From: Tumebacillus lacus
GTDB taxonomy: Bacteria; Bacillota; Bacilli; Tumebacillales; Tumebacillaceae
NCBI RefSeq assembly: GCF_026410385.1
Contig: NZ_JAPMLT010000001.1
Span: forward strand, 124,001 to 188,000
Direction of reading: 5' to 3'
Length of the DNA stretch: 64,000 nt
Made by a program: the position numbers and the translations under genes. Position 1 is the stretch's first letter; each line of letters starts with the position of its first letter. The notes below the pieces were generated by a model. That model did not search any database. It had not been told where the DNA came from and saw nothing but the letters and a program-made list of their open reading frames with translations. Below are positions 1,042-27,420 of this stretch, piece after piece.

Positions 1042-2562
1042 ATGTGGGAATCGAGTCTCGGTTTGTTGCCTGTCGCCGTCATTCTGCTGCTGTTGTTTGG
1101 GTTCAAGCAGACGGCGACCCGCACCGCACTGGGCGGATACGTGATCGCTCTGTTACTTACGTTCGCCGTACCTGCCTTTTCGCTCGGACTGCCGGGGATC
1201 TGGCATGCCTCCGTGCAGGGGGTACTGACGACATCGCTCGTCGCCTACGTCTTGCTTTTTGGTATTTTCCTTTATCATTTAATGAAAGAAAAAGAAATCA
1301 TCCCGTCCATCGCCGCCTTCGTCGCCCGTTCGACAGACGACCCGGTGCGGCAGGTGTTGATCCTCTGCGTCGCCTTTTCGCCGCTGGTCGAGTCGGCGAG
1401 CGGTTTTGGGGTGTCTGTCATCGTCGTAGCCCCGATCTTGGTCGCGCTCGGGTTTCGCCCCTATCGCGCTGCGCTGCTTTCGCTGATCTCTATGTTCGCT
1501 GTGCCTTGGGGCGCGATGGCAACCGGCATGGTGGTCGGCGCGTCGCTCTCCGATCTGCCTCTGCGTACCATCGGCGTGTGGACGGCAAATCTTACGGTGC
1601 CGACCTTTTTCTTTTTTGTGCTCTTGCTCGTCTGGTTGGCCGGCGGCTGGCAGGGCGTGAAGAAGAGGGGGGCGGAGGCGTTGTTCCTCACCGCTGTGCT
1701 GGGTGCGTCCGTCTACCTGTTTAACGCCTGGGTCAGCGTCGAACTGGCCGGTGTTTTCGGCGGGCTTGTCACGCTGTCTGTCGCTCTGACTCTGGTTCGG
1801 CTCTCCGCGTCCCGAGCGGCAAGGCAGGCTGTCGACGGCGTCAGGGAGACGGCGGCAGATGTTGAGGCGGCGCCCGCTTACTCTTTGTTCAAAGCGATGA
1901 GCCCGTATCTGTTTCTGACCGTCTTTTTGTTTTTGACCCGGTTGATCCCGCCGCTGGAAGCATGGCTGCGCAGTCATGCGCGATTGGAGTTTGCGAGCTA
2001 TTCCTTTTCGTTGCCCTTGCTTTACTCGCCGGGCTTTGCGTTGGCGGTGACCTGTCTGTTTACTTGGTGGTTCTTCCGCCCAGATCGGGGCATGGTCGGC
2101 CGTGCCGCGCGGGCGACTGTCAAGCAATGGGTGTCGGTCAATCTCTCTACTGTCGCGTTTGTGGCGATGTCGGAGGTGATGGCGATGTCCGGCATGACGG
2201 CGGCGCTCGCCACAGTGACGGCCGCCTTGTTCGGGTATTGGTTCCTCGCCCTCTCGCCATGGGTCGGCGGGCTCGGCGGTTTTCTGACCGGGAGTAATGC
2301 GGGGTCCAATGCGATGTTTCTCAACTTGCAAGTCGCGGCAGCCGCCCAGTTGCGTCTGCCGCCGGAACTGTTCGCGGGCGTGCAAAATGCGGCAGCGTCG
2401 CATTTGACGATGGCCTCGCCGTCTCGCGTGTTGCTCGGTGTCACCGTATTGAACATCCGCGAGCAAGAGAACCGACTGCTGCGGCACATGATGGGGGTGG
2501 GTGCAGCGACGTTATTGTTGCTGACGGGCCTAGCACTCGCGTTTTCATTTGTCGCATCGTAA
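1042..2562 (+). CDS. lctP: L-lactate permease family transporter
   Basis: Membrane protein of 506 residues in the LctP family, which imports L-lactate or glycolate with protons. About 12 hydrophobic helices are visible. Family motifs are present: VESASGFGVSVIVVAP near residue 120, the PWGAMATGM stretch, and LGGFLTGSNAGSNAMF in the C-terminal third. The length is slightly below the usual 530-560. The ATG at 1042 is chosen because AGAGGGG precedes it; an upstream in-frame ATG would add 43 non-hydrophobic residues without a good ribosome binding site. It has its own promoter and is followed by the nitrate reductase promoter. The substrate is inferred from family only. Confidence 0.85.
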   Translation: MWESSLGLLPVAVILLLLFGFKQTATRTALGGYVIALLLTFAVPAFSLGLPGIWHASVQGVLTTSLVAYVLLFGIFLYHLMKEKEIIPSIAAFVARSTDDPVRQVLILCVAFSPLVESASGFGVSVIVVAPILVALGFRPYRAALLSLISMFAVPWGAMATGMVVGASLSDLPLRTIGVWTANLTVPTFFFFVLLLVWLAGGWQGVKKRGAEALFLTAVLGASVYLFNAWVSVELAGVFGGLVTLSVALTLVRLSASRAARQAVDGVRETAADVEAAPAYSLFKAMSPYLFLTVFLFLTRLIPPLEAWLRSHARLEFASYSFSLPLLYSPGFALAVTCLFTWWFFRPDRGMVGRAARATVKQWVSVNLSTVAFVAMSEVMAMSGMTAALATVTAALFGYWFLALSPWVGGLGGFLTGSNAGSNAMFLNLQVAAAAQLRLPPELFAGVQNAAASHLTMASPSRVLLGVTVLNIREQENRLLRHMMGVGAATLLLLTGLALAFSFVAS

Positions 2563-2594
2563 ATTATCATTTTAACAATTGAATCTTGATAATT
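2562..2594. promoter_or_regulatory. Inverted repeat AATTATCA / TGATAATT, candidate operator
   Basis: Perfect 8-base arms at 2562-2569 and 2587-2594 flank the predicted -35 element of the nitrate reductase promoter. It could be an operator, or, because the left arm touches the permease stop codon, part of a weak transcript end. There is no match to the TnrA site TGTNAN7TNACA. Confidence 0.35.
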
Positions 2595-2608
2595 ATTTAT
2601 GATATGAT
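2579..2608 (+). promoter_or_regulatory. Predicted promoter of the nitrate reductase-transporter operon
   Basis: TTGAAT at 2579-2584 and TATGAT at 2603-2608 with an 18-base spacer. Transcription would begin near 2615, so the RNA would start with the leader hairpins described next. Confidence 0.5.
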
Positions 2609-2618
2609 CAATTGCAAG

Positions 2619-2680
2619 AGGAGCCACTATCAGCTCCTGATTTCGAAAGAGCAGTTTCGGAGTCAGGAGTTGTTTCTTTA
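2619..2680 (+). promoter_or_regulatory. Structured leader with two mutually exclusive hairpins before nitrate reductase
   Basis: AGGAGC (2619-2624) can pair with GCTCCT (2633-2638). CTCCTGA (2634-2640) can instead pair with TCAGGAG (2663-2669), with an inner stem CGAAA/TTTCG (2644-2648, 2655-2659). The two hairpins share 2634-2638, so they cannot form together. The longer one is followed by a U-rich run (2670-2679), like an attenuator. This resembles a switchable leader; the signal it responds to is unknown. Confidence 0.45.
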
Positions 2681-2696
2681 AGGAGAAGTGATCGCG

Positions 2697-4817
2697 ATGC
2701 AGTCTCTACTGACCACCACCAACGTGTTGAGCCACTGCTGTTTTTGCTCCATGCAGTGTGCGCTGGAACTGACGGTCGACGGGGACGAGGAGATCGTCCG
2801 CGCCCACCCTGCGCCCGCGTTTCCGGTTGCCAGCGGCAAAGCGTGCGCCAAAGGGGTTTTCGCTCATGAGCATGCCCGGCACCGGGAACGATTGACGACG
2901 CCGCTGTTGCGGCAGGGGGATCGCTTTGTGCCGATCTCTTGGGAGGAGGCGCTGAATCGGATCACCGAGCGATTCCGATCCCTGCAGGACCAATACGGCC
3001 GGGACAGTGTCGCCGTGTTCGGCGGCGGTTCACTGACCAATGAAAAGGCGTATCTGCTCGGCAAATTTGCCCGCGTCGCGCTCGGCACGGCAAACATCGA
3101 TTACAACGGGCGTTACTGCATGTCCTCGGCCGCAGCGGCGCTGAACAAAGCGTTCGGTCTCGACCGGGGGATGACCGTGCCGCTGTCGGACATTCCACTG
3201 GCACGCTGCATCCTGATCGTCGGGTCCAATATCGCCGAGTGCCAGCCGACGATGATCCCGTATCTGCGCCAAGCGAAGGCGGGCGGTGCCAAAGTGATCG
3301 TGGTCGACCCGCGCCGCACTCAGACGGCAAAAGGGGCCGATCTGCATGCGGCCGTCCGTCCGGGCAGCGATGTCGCGTTGATGAACGGCATTCTGCACAT
3401 TCTTTTGCGCGATGATTTGATTGACTGGTCGTTCATCGAAAAACGCACGCTCAGCTTTGAGGCCGTGCGGGAGACGGTCGCCGCCTATACCCCGGAGCGG
3501 GTGGCGGAGGTCACCGGCGTTCCGGCTTCGGACATCGAGCAGATCGCCCGATGGTACGGCACAGCTGAGACGGCGATCATTTTCACGGCGCGGGGCATCG
3601 AACAGCAGGCGCGCGGTGTCGACAACGTGTTGGCTTGCATCAACCTCGTGCTTGCCACAGGTCAGATCGGACGGCCGGGGAGCGGTTTTGGTGCGGTCAC
3701 CGGTCAGGCCAATGGGCAAGGGGGACGCGAGCACGGCATGAAAGCGGACCAATTGCCGGGCTATCGTATGATTGACAATCCAGTCGACCGTCAGCACATC
3801 GCAAATGTGTGGGGAGTTGACGAGAGAGAATTGCCGGGGAAAGGGATGTCTGCGTATGAGTTGTTCGAAGGAGCAGATCGCGGCGACATCCGGGGGATGT
3901 TCGTGATGGCGTCCAATCCGGCCACGTCCAGCCCCAACACACACTTGGTCAAACGGGCTTTGCAAGATCTCGATTTTCTCGTGGTCACCGACCTGTTTCT
4001 CACTGAGACGGCGCAGTTCGCCGATGTGGTGCTGCCAGGGTCGGCGTGGACGGAAGATGAAGGTACGATGACCAACCTCGAAGGGAGAATCGTGCTGCGC
4101 CGCGCCGCCCAACGCCCGCCGGGAGAGGCACGCCTCGACTGGCAGATCCTCTGTGAACTGGCTGAGCGGCTGGGAAAAGGGAGCTTTTTTGCCTTCGAAG
4201 AGACGGAAGATATCTATGATGAACTTCGGCGGGCCAGCGCGGGCGGGCGGGCCGACTATGCGGGAGCGAGCTATCAAAAGATCGCGGAACAGCAAGGCGT
4301 GTTCTGGCCTTGCCCGAATGAGTCACACAGCGGGACGGAGCGGATGTTTGCCGATTCGTTCGCTCACCCGCACGGCAAGGCGGTCTTTCACGCCGTCACA
4401 CACCGCCCGCTGTCGGAAGAGCCGGATCGCGATTATCCGCTCCATCTGACGAACGGACGGTTGCTTCATCACTACCTGACCGGCGTGCAGACCCGCCGCA
4501 CATCTCGCCTGCACGCTCGCGATCCGCATCCGCAGGTCGAGATGCACCCGGCCACGGCAGCTCGCTACGGCGTGGTGGCTGGCGAGACGGTGGAGATCGC
4601 GACGCGGCGGGGGAGTGTTCCGATGCGGGTGAAGATCACCGCCGACATGCGGGAAGACCTGCTGTTTGCTCCGATTCATTGGGAACATGCCGAGTCGATC
4701 AATCTGCTGACCTTGGCGGATCTCGACCCGATCTCTCGGATGCCGGAGTTTAAACACTGTGCGGCTGCGTTGCGAAAATGGAAGGGCGATTCAGTACTAG
4801 GAGGTGTCCGCGTGTGA
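2697..4817 (+). CDS. nasC: Assimilatory nitrate reductase catalytic subunit (molybdopterin, 4Fe-4S)
   Basis: Protein of 706 residues that reduces nitrate to nitrite in the cytoplasm using a bis-MGD molybdenum centre. C14-x2-C17-x3-C21-x28-C50 binds the 4Fe-4S cluster at the N-terminus, and C141 in GRYCMSS is the likely Mo ligand. The molybdopterin oxidoreductase core follows (VGSNIAECQP, VVDPRRTQTA, TDLFLTETAQFADVVLP), then the C-terminal MGD-binding barrel. No signal peptide is present. The length matches B. subtilis NasC (about 710). ATG 2697 is 10 bases after AAGGAGA; the GTG nine bases earlier is too close to it. The next gene, a nitrate transporter, overlaps the stop. No electron-transfer partner or nitrite reductase is adjacent. 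Formate dehydrogenase is a less likely alternative. Confidence 0.88.
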   Translation: MQSLLTTTNVLSHCCFCSMQCALELTVDGDEEIVRAHPAPAFPVASGKACAKGVFAHEHARHRERLTTPLLRQGDRFVPISWEEALNRITERFRSLQDQYGRDSVAVFGGGSLTNEKAYLLGKFARVALGTANIDYNGRYCMSSAAAALNKAFGLDRGMTVPLSDIPLARCILIVGSNIAECQPTMIPYLRQAKAGGAKVIVVDPRRTQTAKGADLHAAVRPGSDVALMNGILHILLRDDLIDWSFIEKRTLSFEAVRETVAAYTPERVAEVTGVPASDIEQIARWYGTAETAIIFTARGIEQQARGVDNVLACINLVLATGQIGRPGSGFGAVTGQANGQGGREHGMKADQLPGYRMIDNPVDRQHIANVWGVDERELPGKGMSAYELFEGADRGDIRGMFVMASNPATSSPNTHLVKRALQDLDFLVVTDLFLTETAQFADVVLPGSAWTEDEGTMTNLEGRIVLRRAAQRPPGEARLDWQILCELAERLGKGSFFAFEETEDIYDELRRASAGGRADYAGASYQKIAEQQGVFWPCPNESHSGTERMFADSFAHPHGKAVFHAVTHRPLSEEPDRDYPLHLTNGRLLHHYLTGVQTRRTSRLHARDPHPQVEMHPATAARYGVVAGETVEIATRRGSVPMRVKITADMREDLLFAPIHWEHAESINLLTLADLDPISRMPEFKHCAAALRKWKGDSVLGGVRV

Positions 4818-6034
4818 ACATTCGCACCTTTGCCAAAGACGGCCACTGGCCGACGCTTTTCTCTTCGTTTCTTTACTTTGACGTTTCCTTTATGATCTGG
4901 GTGCTGCTCGGGGCGGTATCGACCTTTATCACCGCCGACTTTGGTCTGAGCGCTTCCCAAAAAGGCATGCTCGTCGGCATTCCGATCCTCGGCGGCGCAC
5001 TGCTGCGCATTCCGCTTGGCCTGTTCGCAGATCGCTACGGAGGCAAACGGGTCGGCTTGATCGGCATGGCGGTGACGATGATTCCCCTGCTGTGGGGTTG
5101 GCTGTACGGACAACATTTGAGTGAACTGTATGCGTTCGGGCTCTTGCTCGGCGTGGCGGGGGCTAGTTTCTCCGTCGCTCTGCCGCTGGCGAGCCGATGG
5201 TACCGTCCGGAGCATCAGGGTCTTGCGATGGGCATCGCCGGGGCGGGCAACAGCGGCACCGTGTTGGCGACGCTGTTCGGACCGCGCCTCGCCGAACACT
5301 TCGGCTGGCATGCGGTGTTTGGATTTGCGCTCTTGCCGCTGTTCGCTGCGTTCCTCGTGTTTCTGCTCTGCGTGAAAGAGAGTCCGAACCGCCCGCAACC
5401 GCAAAAGATCGTCGAGTACCTCACGATTACCAAACGCAAAGAAACGTGGCTGTTCAGCTTTTTCTACTCGCTGTCTTTCGGCGGCTTTGTCGGACTGACC
5501 AGCTACCTGTCGCTGTTTTTCGTTGACCAGTACGGCATCTCCAAAGTCCAAGCGGGCGACTTTGTCACCCTGATCGTCTTTGGCGGCAGTTTTATCCGTC
5601 CCATCGGCGGGTACCTGGCCGACCGCTTTGGCGGCTCGAATCTGCTCGTGCGCCTGTTCGCCCTCGCCGGGCTGGTGCTGATCGGCGTCGGATTTTTACC
5701 GACCTTCTGGGTCTGTTTCGTGCTCTTGTTCCTCACGTTGCTCCTGTTCGGCGCGTGCAACGGGTCCTTGTTCCAAGTCGTCCCGACCCGATTCCCGCGC
5801 GAAGTCGGCGTGATGACCGGTTTCATCGGCGCGGCCGGGGGACTGGGCGGTTTCTTCGTCCCGATGATCCTTGGAACGCTCAAAGACTGGACCGGCTCCT
5901 ATTCGTACGGCTTTTGGTGGTTCGCCCTCACGGCATTCGCCGCGATGGTCGTTCTGATCGCACTGCAACGCGACTGGAAACGCCAAGCTTCATTGCTTAC
6001 TTCCACGGTCCAGACAAAAGCAAAAGCCACCTGA
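4814..6034 (+). CDS. narK: NarK/NasA-type nitrate or nitrite transporter (MFS)
   Basis: Membrane protein of 406 residues from the nitrate-nitrite porter branch of the MFS. Diagnostic glycine-rich nitrate signatures are visible in helices 5 and 11: GIAGAGNSGTVLATLFGP and GFIGAAGGLGGFFVP. The conserved FDVSFMIWVLLG helix 1 and the RIPLGLFADRYGGKR loop also fit. The GTG start overlaps the reductase stop by four bases (GTGA) with GGAGGTG seven bases upstream, so the two are translationally coupled. It probably imports nitrate for the reductase; nitrite export cannot be excluded. The stop codon lies inside the following terminator hairpin. Confidence 0.9.
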   Translation: MNIRTFAKDGHWPTLFSSFLYFDVSFMIWVLLGAVSTFITADFGLSASQKGMLVGIPILGGALLRIPLGLFADRYGGKRVGLIGMAVTMIPLLWGWLYGQHLSELYAFGLLLGVAGASFSVALPLASRWYRPEHQGLAMGIAGAGNSGTVLATLFGPRLAEHFGWHAVFGFALLPLFAAFLVFLLCVKESPNRPQPQKIVEYLTITKRKETWLFSFFYSLSFGGFVGLTSYLSLFFVDQYGISKVQAGDFVTLIVFGGSFIRPIGGYLADRFGGSNLLVRLFALAGLVLIGVGFLPTFWVCFVLLFLTLLLFGACNGSLFQVVPTRFPREVGVMTGFIGAAGGLGGFFVPMILGTLKDWTGSYSYGFWWFALTAFAAMVVLIALQRDWKRQASLLTSTVQTKAKAT

Positions 6035-26961: not shown

Positions 26962-27420
26962 ATGGGATTGTACGACAGCATTAACATCAGCGCCTCGTCG
27001 CTGACGGCGCAACGTCTGCGTTTGGACGTGATCTCGAACAACATCGCCAACGCAAACACCACCCGCGGCATCGACGGACAGCCGTTCCGCCGCCAGATCG
27101 TTTCGTTCGGTGAGCGGACCGCTCAGCCGTCGTTCAGCAACGTGCTGGCGCAAGAGTTGGGTCAAGCACCGGGGCAAGGGGTTCGCGTCACGTCCATCGG
27201 CCGCGACCAGTCGCCGTTTAAGCTCGTCTATGATCCGAATCACCCGGATGCGGTGAAAAATCCGCAAGACCCGATGTTCGGGTATGTGCGGATGCCAAAT
27301 GTAAACGTCGCGACGGAGATGGTTGACATGATCTCCGCTTCCCGCTCGTATGAGGCGAGCGTCACTGCGATCAACGCAGCAAAATCTCAAGCCATGAAGG
27401 CGCTTGAGATCGGTCGATAG
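26962..27420 (+). CDS. flgC: Flagellar basal body rod protein FlgC
   Basis: Rod protein of 152 residues. ISNNIANANTTRGIDG at the N-terminus and EMVDMISASRSYEASVTAIN near the C-terminus are the paired helical motifs of axial proteins. The stretch FGYVRMPNVNVATEM matches the family. It assembles with FlgB, FlgF/G-type rod proteins and FliE. Confidence 0.96.
   Translation: MGLYDSINISASSLTAQRLRLDVISNNIANANTTRGIDGQPFRRQIVSFGERTAQPSFSNVLAQELGQAPGQGVRVTSIGRDQSPFKLVYDPNHPDAVKNPQDPMFGYVRMPNVNVATEMVDMISASRSYEASVTAINAAKSQAMKALEIGR

Follow-up and report, generated by a model that had tools for sequence, protein, structure and literature searches.

How can the small nitrate operon of Tumebacillus lacus be expressed when a strong terminator-like hairpin stands in its likely leader? 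We addressed this question in a window of 64,000 nucleotides (positions 124,001 to 188,000 of contig NZ_JAPMLT010000001.1, assembly GCF_026410385.1), and all coordinates given here are those of the window. A lactate-permease-like gene on the plus strand (1042-2562; PF02652, E 1e-57; start inferred) reaches 183.6 bits with TIGR00795, below the cut-off of 341.15. After 134 bases it is followed by a nasC-like open frame for the catalytic subunit of an assimilatory nitrate reductase (2697-4817, plus strand). NasC is the top NCBIfam model for its product (NF047855, 991.9 bits), under the equivalog cut-off of 1100, and an in-frame GTG at 2688 is a possible alternative start. The next gene (4814-6034, plus strand) encodes a NarK-like nitrate/nitrite transporter (PF07690; TIGR00886, 288.7 bits, under the cut-off of 311.7), and with nasC it forms a small nitrate-use operon. 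The nasC DNA has no near match in plasmids. Its ribosome binding site, AAGGAG, can be read directly at 2680-2685 on the plus strand. The likely leader upstream of this site contains the strong terminator-like hairpin, H2, and a weaker hairpin, H1, that competes with it. A leader peptide was rejected because the TTG frame at 2612 reaches 2869 without a stop ahead of nasC (frames of at least 80 amino acids were listed); the further start codons found by eye in 2609-2690 are a TTG at 2670, with three codons, and the GTG in the nasC frame.

H2 (2631-2672, plus strand) is identified as intrinsic-terminator-like by its fold, by shuffling and by terminator scans. It has 18 continuous pairs, G-U pairs included, with a folding energy of -26.7 kcal/mol (z -7.7), which 0 of 200 shuffles match. 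As the preliminary description had it, this second hairpin is the longer one and is followed by a U-rich run ahead of the ribosome site: TTTCTTT at 2673-2679 on the plus strand, read directly and also supported by the terminator ranking, fills the seven bases between H2 and AAGGAG. When a script ranked 15 terminator-like structures across the 64 kb window, H2 came first both by tail score and by energy. A simple terminator scan of 2300-2900 returned one site, where shuffles hold 0.7 on average. What distinguishes H2 is thus the length of its stem, its energy and its tail rather than the number of sites.

The promoter scan, which covers sigma-70-type promoters only, found a promoter-like site by consensus at 2579-2608 on the plus strand (TTGAAT-N18-TATGAT, with TG ahead of the -10), from which transcription of nasC would be expected to start at about 2614-2616. 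Two more plus-strand sites upstream, at 2542-2570 and 2564-2593, share an equal score of 9/12 in the same scan. Because the consensus scan gave no plus-strand promoter-like site inside H2 or in the seven bases that follow it, the nasC mRNA must cross H2 whichever of the detected promoter-like sites it starts from. By its position, H2 is thus a candidate attenuator, regulated or not. An 8-base inverted repeat enclosing the -35, AATTATCA-N17-TGATAATT (2562-2594, read directly, no strand assigned), had also been pointed out, and it is present with arms at 2562-2569 and 2587-2594; it does not exceed chance, however, as an equally long repeat occurs in 105 of 1000 shuffles of 2560-2625, and we rejected an operator at this site on that ground. 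At 2564-2593 the repeat is promoter-like on both strands (TTATCA-18-GATAAT), probably as a by-product of its symmetry.

H1 (2619-2638, plus strand) is a 6-pair hairpin, AGGAGC-CACTATCA-GCTCCT, and a candidate antiterminator that emerges from folding with a modest excess over chance: alone it gives -8.3 kcal/mol, and 3 of 200 shuffles fold as well. The preliminary description proposed that the two hairpins exclude each other. Both are indeed present and overlapping, with the loops it stated (CACTATCA in H1 and GAGCAG in H2), but the overlap spans the six bases 2633-2638 rather than 2634-2638, and H1 blocks only the lower eight pairs of H2. When the chain was grown in steps of four bases, the best folds contained H1 at lengths ending at 2640-2668 and H2 from 2672 on. 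For the leader 2614-2697, the best fold (-31.1 kcal/mol) contains H2, and the best fold with H1 forced (-24.6) is 6.5 kcal/mol worse. H2 is therefore the default fold of the full leader; H1 would need help to win, and transcription should often end ahead of nasC. In the H1-forced fold, H2 keeps its upper ten pairs and is open at its base beside the U-run; bases 2669-2678, the U-run, pair with 2683-2692, part of the ribosome-site region, and this pairing might hinder translation in the H1 state.

How often such an overlap arises by chance was assessed in several ways. When real 22-mers of the window were placed before H2, 283 of 9129 made an H1-like hairpin. Shuffles of 2609-2630 in the same place did so in 326 of 5000 cases when dinucleotides were kept and 66 of 5000 when mononucleotides were kept; for 2614-2630 the corresponding counts were 667 and 176 of 5000, and for 2596-2630 they were 84 and 45 of 5000. 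Since real 22-mers and shuffles also yield such hairpins, H1 is a modest signal. Among terminators with stems of 8 pairs or more, 2 of 17 in the window, namely H2 and one other, have a competing hairpin of 6 pairs or more upstream; the fetched loci, a set with some mutual overlap, gave 0 of 125. The other case in the window has a competing hairpin of 7 pairs and lies at 27058-27082 on the minus strand.

We tentatively read the nasC-narK leader as one of attenuator type, with H1 as the antiterminator, H2 as the terminator and some trigger; we place this reading only just short of probable. Under this model, H2 and the U-rich run would act as an intrinsic terminator in the 5' leader, predicted to be strong from its sequence, and would by default end many transcripts. 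H1 would be the first to form and, if held, would open the lower eight pairs of H2 beside the U-run, as an antiterminator should. The model calls for a factor that either keeps H1 in place or lets polymerase past in some other way, possibly an RNA-binding protein linked to nitrate or nitrogen state; the genome yielded neither an ANTAR nor a BglG-type protein for this role. The more specific proposal, an undescribed RNA switch unrelated to the ANTAR system of the order in which a nitrate- or nitrogen-linked factor holds H1 and so blocks the lower stem of H2, seems unlikely to us. The NIT nitrate-sensing domain has no match in the genome, and the control genomes also gave none, so this result is uninformative. 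The idea of a switch-like leader, raised at the outset, thus stands in its geometry, which suits a terminator that is contested by a hairpin upstream and lies where the nasC mRNA crosses it; it is weakened by the energy cost of the H1-forced fold and by the chance that H2 may be the terminator of the upstream gene.

That second point is the leading alternative: H2 may be an ordinary terminator of the lactate-permease-like gene, with the nas promoter lying ahead of it by happenstance, nasC expressed through constant partial readthrough and H1 a chance match to the 5' arm of H2. We regard this as quite possible, though clearly short of probable. H2 shares with plain intergenic intrinsic terminators its stem, loop, U-run and position downstream of a same-strand gene, and it starts 68 bases past the stop codon of that gene. 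Two scans found no other plus-strand terminator-like candidate between this stop codon and nasC; H2 is therefore the sole terminator candidate for the upstream gene, and the explanation stays close. The frequency of H1-like overlaps among real 22-mers and shuffles fits it as well, as does the failure to find a homologous leader. It sits less easily with the position of H2 within what is likely the leader of nasC and with the presence of a competing hairpin, seen in none of the 125 fetched-locus terminators and in 1 of the 16 others in the window. A strong terminator directly ahead of the next operon's ribosome site would also be expected to cost expression unless it is used.

Searches for the leader elsewhere returned little beyond the locus itself. 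A DNA search of 398 genomes of the class, an even draw from a larger group, found its own copy and, in four other genomes, stray matches 24-29 bases long, with at most two candidates per genome scored. Model R1 retrieved only its own copy from the class genomes, under stricter filters and mostly with 11 candidates per genome scored. A search of 86 nasC loci together with the window, 87 sources in all, matched both strands of the window and one site far from nasC with an E-value of 0.97, and had no hit at the leader in the 86 loci. Since the searches turned up no close relative that has the operon, the missing leader homologue is an absence of evidence. At E up to 1e-150, nasC is found in 6 of the 14 order genomes and, within the family of seven, in this genome only; the other six family genomes also gave no lactate-permease-like gene at 1e-20. 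With neither gene found in these six at those thresholds, the pair may have been gained together here or lost elsewhere. NirB had no match over the family cut-off in the own genome (best 119.8 bits); frames near 63254 of contig C4 and near 93662 of contig C12 of this genome (G000) match only the sirohaem-reductase part of the NirB profile, and family genomes without nasC also have frames matching only this part.

Considerably less probable is that H2 is a 5' stem with a role in shielding the mRNA or in keeping the ribosome site accessible, where a CsrA-like protein might act on translation or stability. The genome does encode CsrA, and GGA triplets lie in the 5' arm of H1 (2620-2622), in the 3' arm of H2 (2666-2668) and in the ribosome site (2682-2684). 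These sites were judged by eye, however, and GGA triplets are common, while the U-run directly after H2 is required of a terminator but not of a stabiliser.

Nitrate leaders with a comparable layout occur in the order. ANTAR-target dual-hairpin leaders, such as those of Klebsiella nas (NasR) and Enterococcus eut (EutV), resemble the attenuator proposed here in having a small hairpin that reaches into the 5' arm of a terminator, in the nas case also ahead of a nitrate operon. The six-base loop rule of this class, A1 and G4, has mutational support according to PMC3369931. Dual hairpins with six-base A1/G4 loops were found upstream of nasC in order genomes G007, G008, G010 and, for one of its two copies, G009. 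In these four, the 3' arm of the small hairpin lies within the 5' arm of a terminator-like stem (by script in G007, by eye in G008, G009 and G010). The same nas leader topology in four order genomes indicates that attenuation of nas is a habit of that group. Such a pair is absent before the second nasC copy of G009 and before nasC of G013. Among the nasC loci, the dual hairpin is present at L003 and none is found at L007; A1/G4 pairs in L034, L052 and L082 have stems of 3-4 pairs and unrelated loops, and we took them as chance. Locus L033, with one base upstream of its match, falls outside the comparison.

The four genomes with these leaders also carry an ANTAR protein. The domain was found in 5 of the 14 order genomes (G007-G011), and in none of the seven family genomes, including our own, with an assembly completeness of 95.74%; the 14 control genomes gave no match, but the order relatives did. 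Model R2, built from three ANTAR leaders of the order, scores those three at 49-52 bits. The held-out leader of G007 scored 19.2 bits in its locus and was not recovered at E up to 1 when whole genomes were searched, a search in which stray matches in G009, G010, G011 and G013 reached 19.4-21.3 bits. R2 would therefore miss divergent ANTAR leaders, its silence in the own genome means little, and the argument against ANTAR rests on the protein and the loops. The preliminary description had already set this leader apart from the ANTAR class, and we agree: when the 500 bases upstream of this nasC were scanned by script, no pair of A1/G4 hairpins emerged. H1 does share 2633-2638 with the 5' arm of the terminator-like H2, a feature of the class that alone is insufficient for membership. 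A degenerate version of the ANTAR-type nitrate leaders seen in the order relatives, which would share the topology and the downstream gene, is very improbable, because the genome yielded no ANTAR protein, neither loop is A1/G4 (that of H1 has 8 bases), the second small hairpin is absent and the space between the expected start and H1 leaves no room for a first hairpin P1, and R2, weak test though it is, gives at most 4 bits in the window at 2500-2760.

Other known leader types were also considered. Moco riboswitches can precede molybdoenzyme genes, and the leader here is far shorter than such a riboswitch. The preliminary description held that the RNA is not of this type and proposed a search with Rfam covariance models (Moco, ANTAR targets). 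The search named no family: nothing in the window reached a gathering threshold, and the Moco model had no match at E up to 5 in 2500-2760, in keeping with that judgement. Three microRNA models with E-values of 0.089-0.56 in 2500-2760 are far under their thresholds, and we read them as chance matches to the long stem. RAT leaders of the BglG/SacY type likewise have a small hairpin overlapping a terminator; they were rejected on the protein, since no CAT_RBD (BglG-type) protein was found in the genome, while controls match in 4 of 14. Judged by eye, H1 is presumably also unlike the RAT consensus. For the terms used, the titles and abstract openings retrieved from the literature (including those of PMC3369936 and PMC7496416) mention no non-ANTAR nitrate leader of such a kind.

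What the locus means depends on the role of H2. If H2 is a regulated attenuator, as we tentatively propose, this is a nitrate operon with replaced leader control, for which its order relatives use an ANTAR protein and a dual hairpin. Neither ANTAR part was found here, yet a terminator stands before nasC, and the locus would then offer a small test case for the rewiring of leader switches. If H2 merely terminates the upstream gene, the arrangement is ordinary. Among the relatives, the nasC match of G007 (L006/L118) contains one TAA and is split into two open frames, so that it is possibly decayed or misassembled; the NarK-like gene of G007 matches in two separate pieces only.
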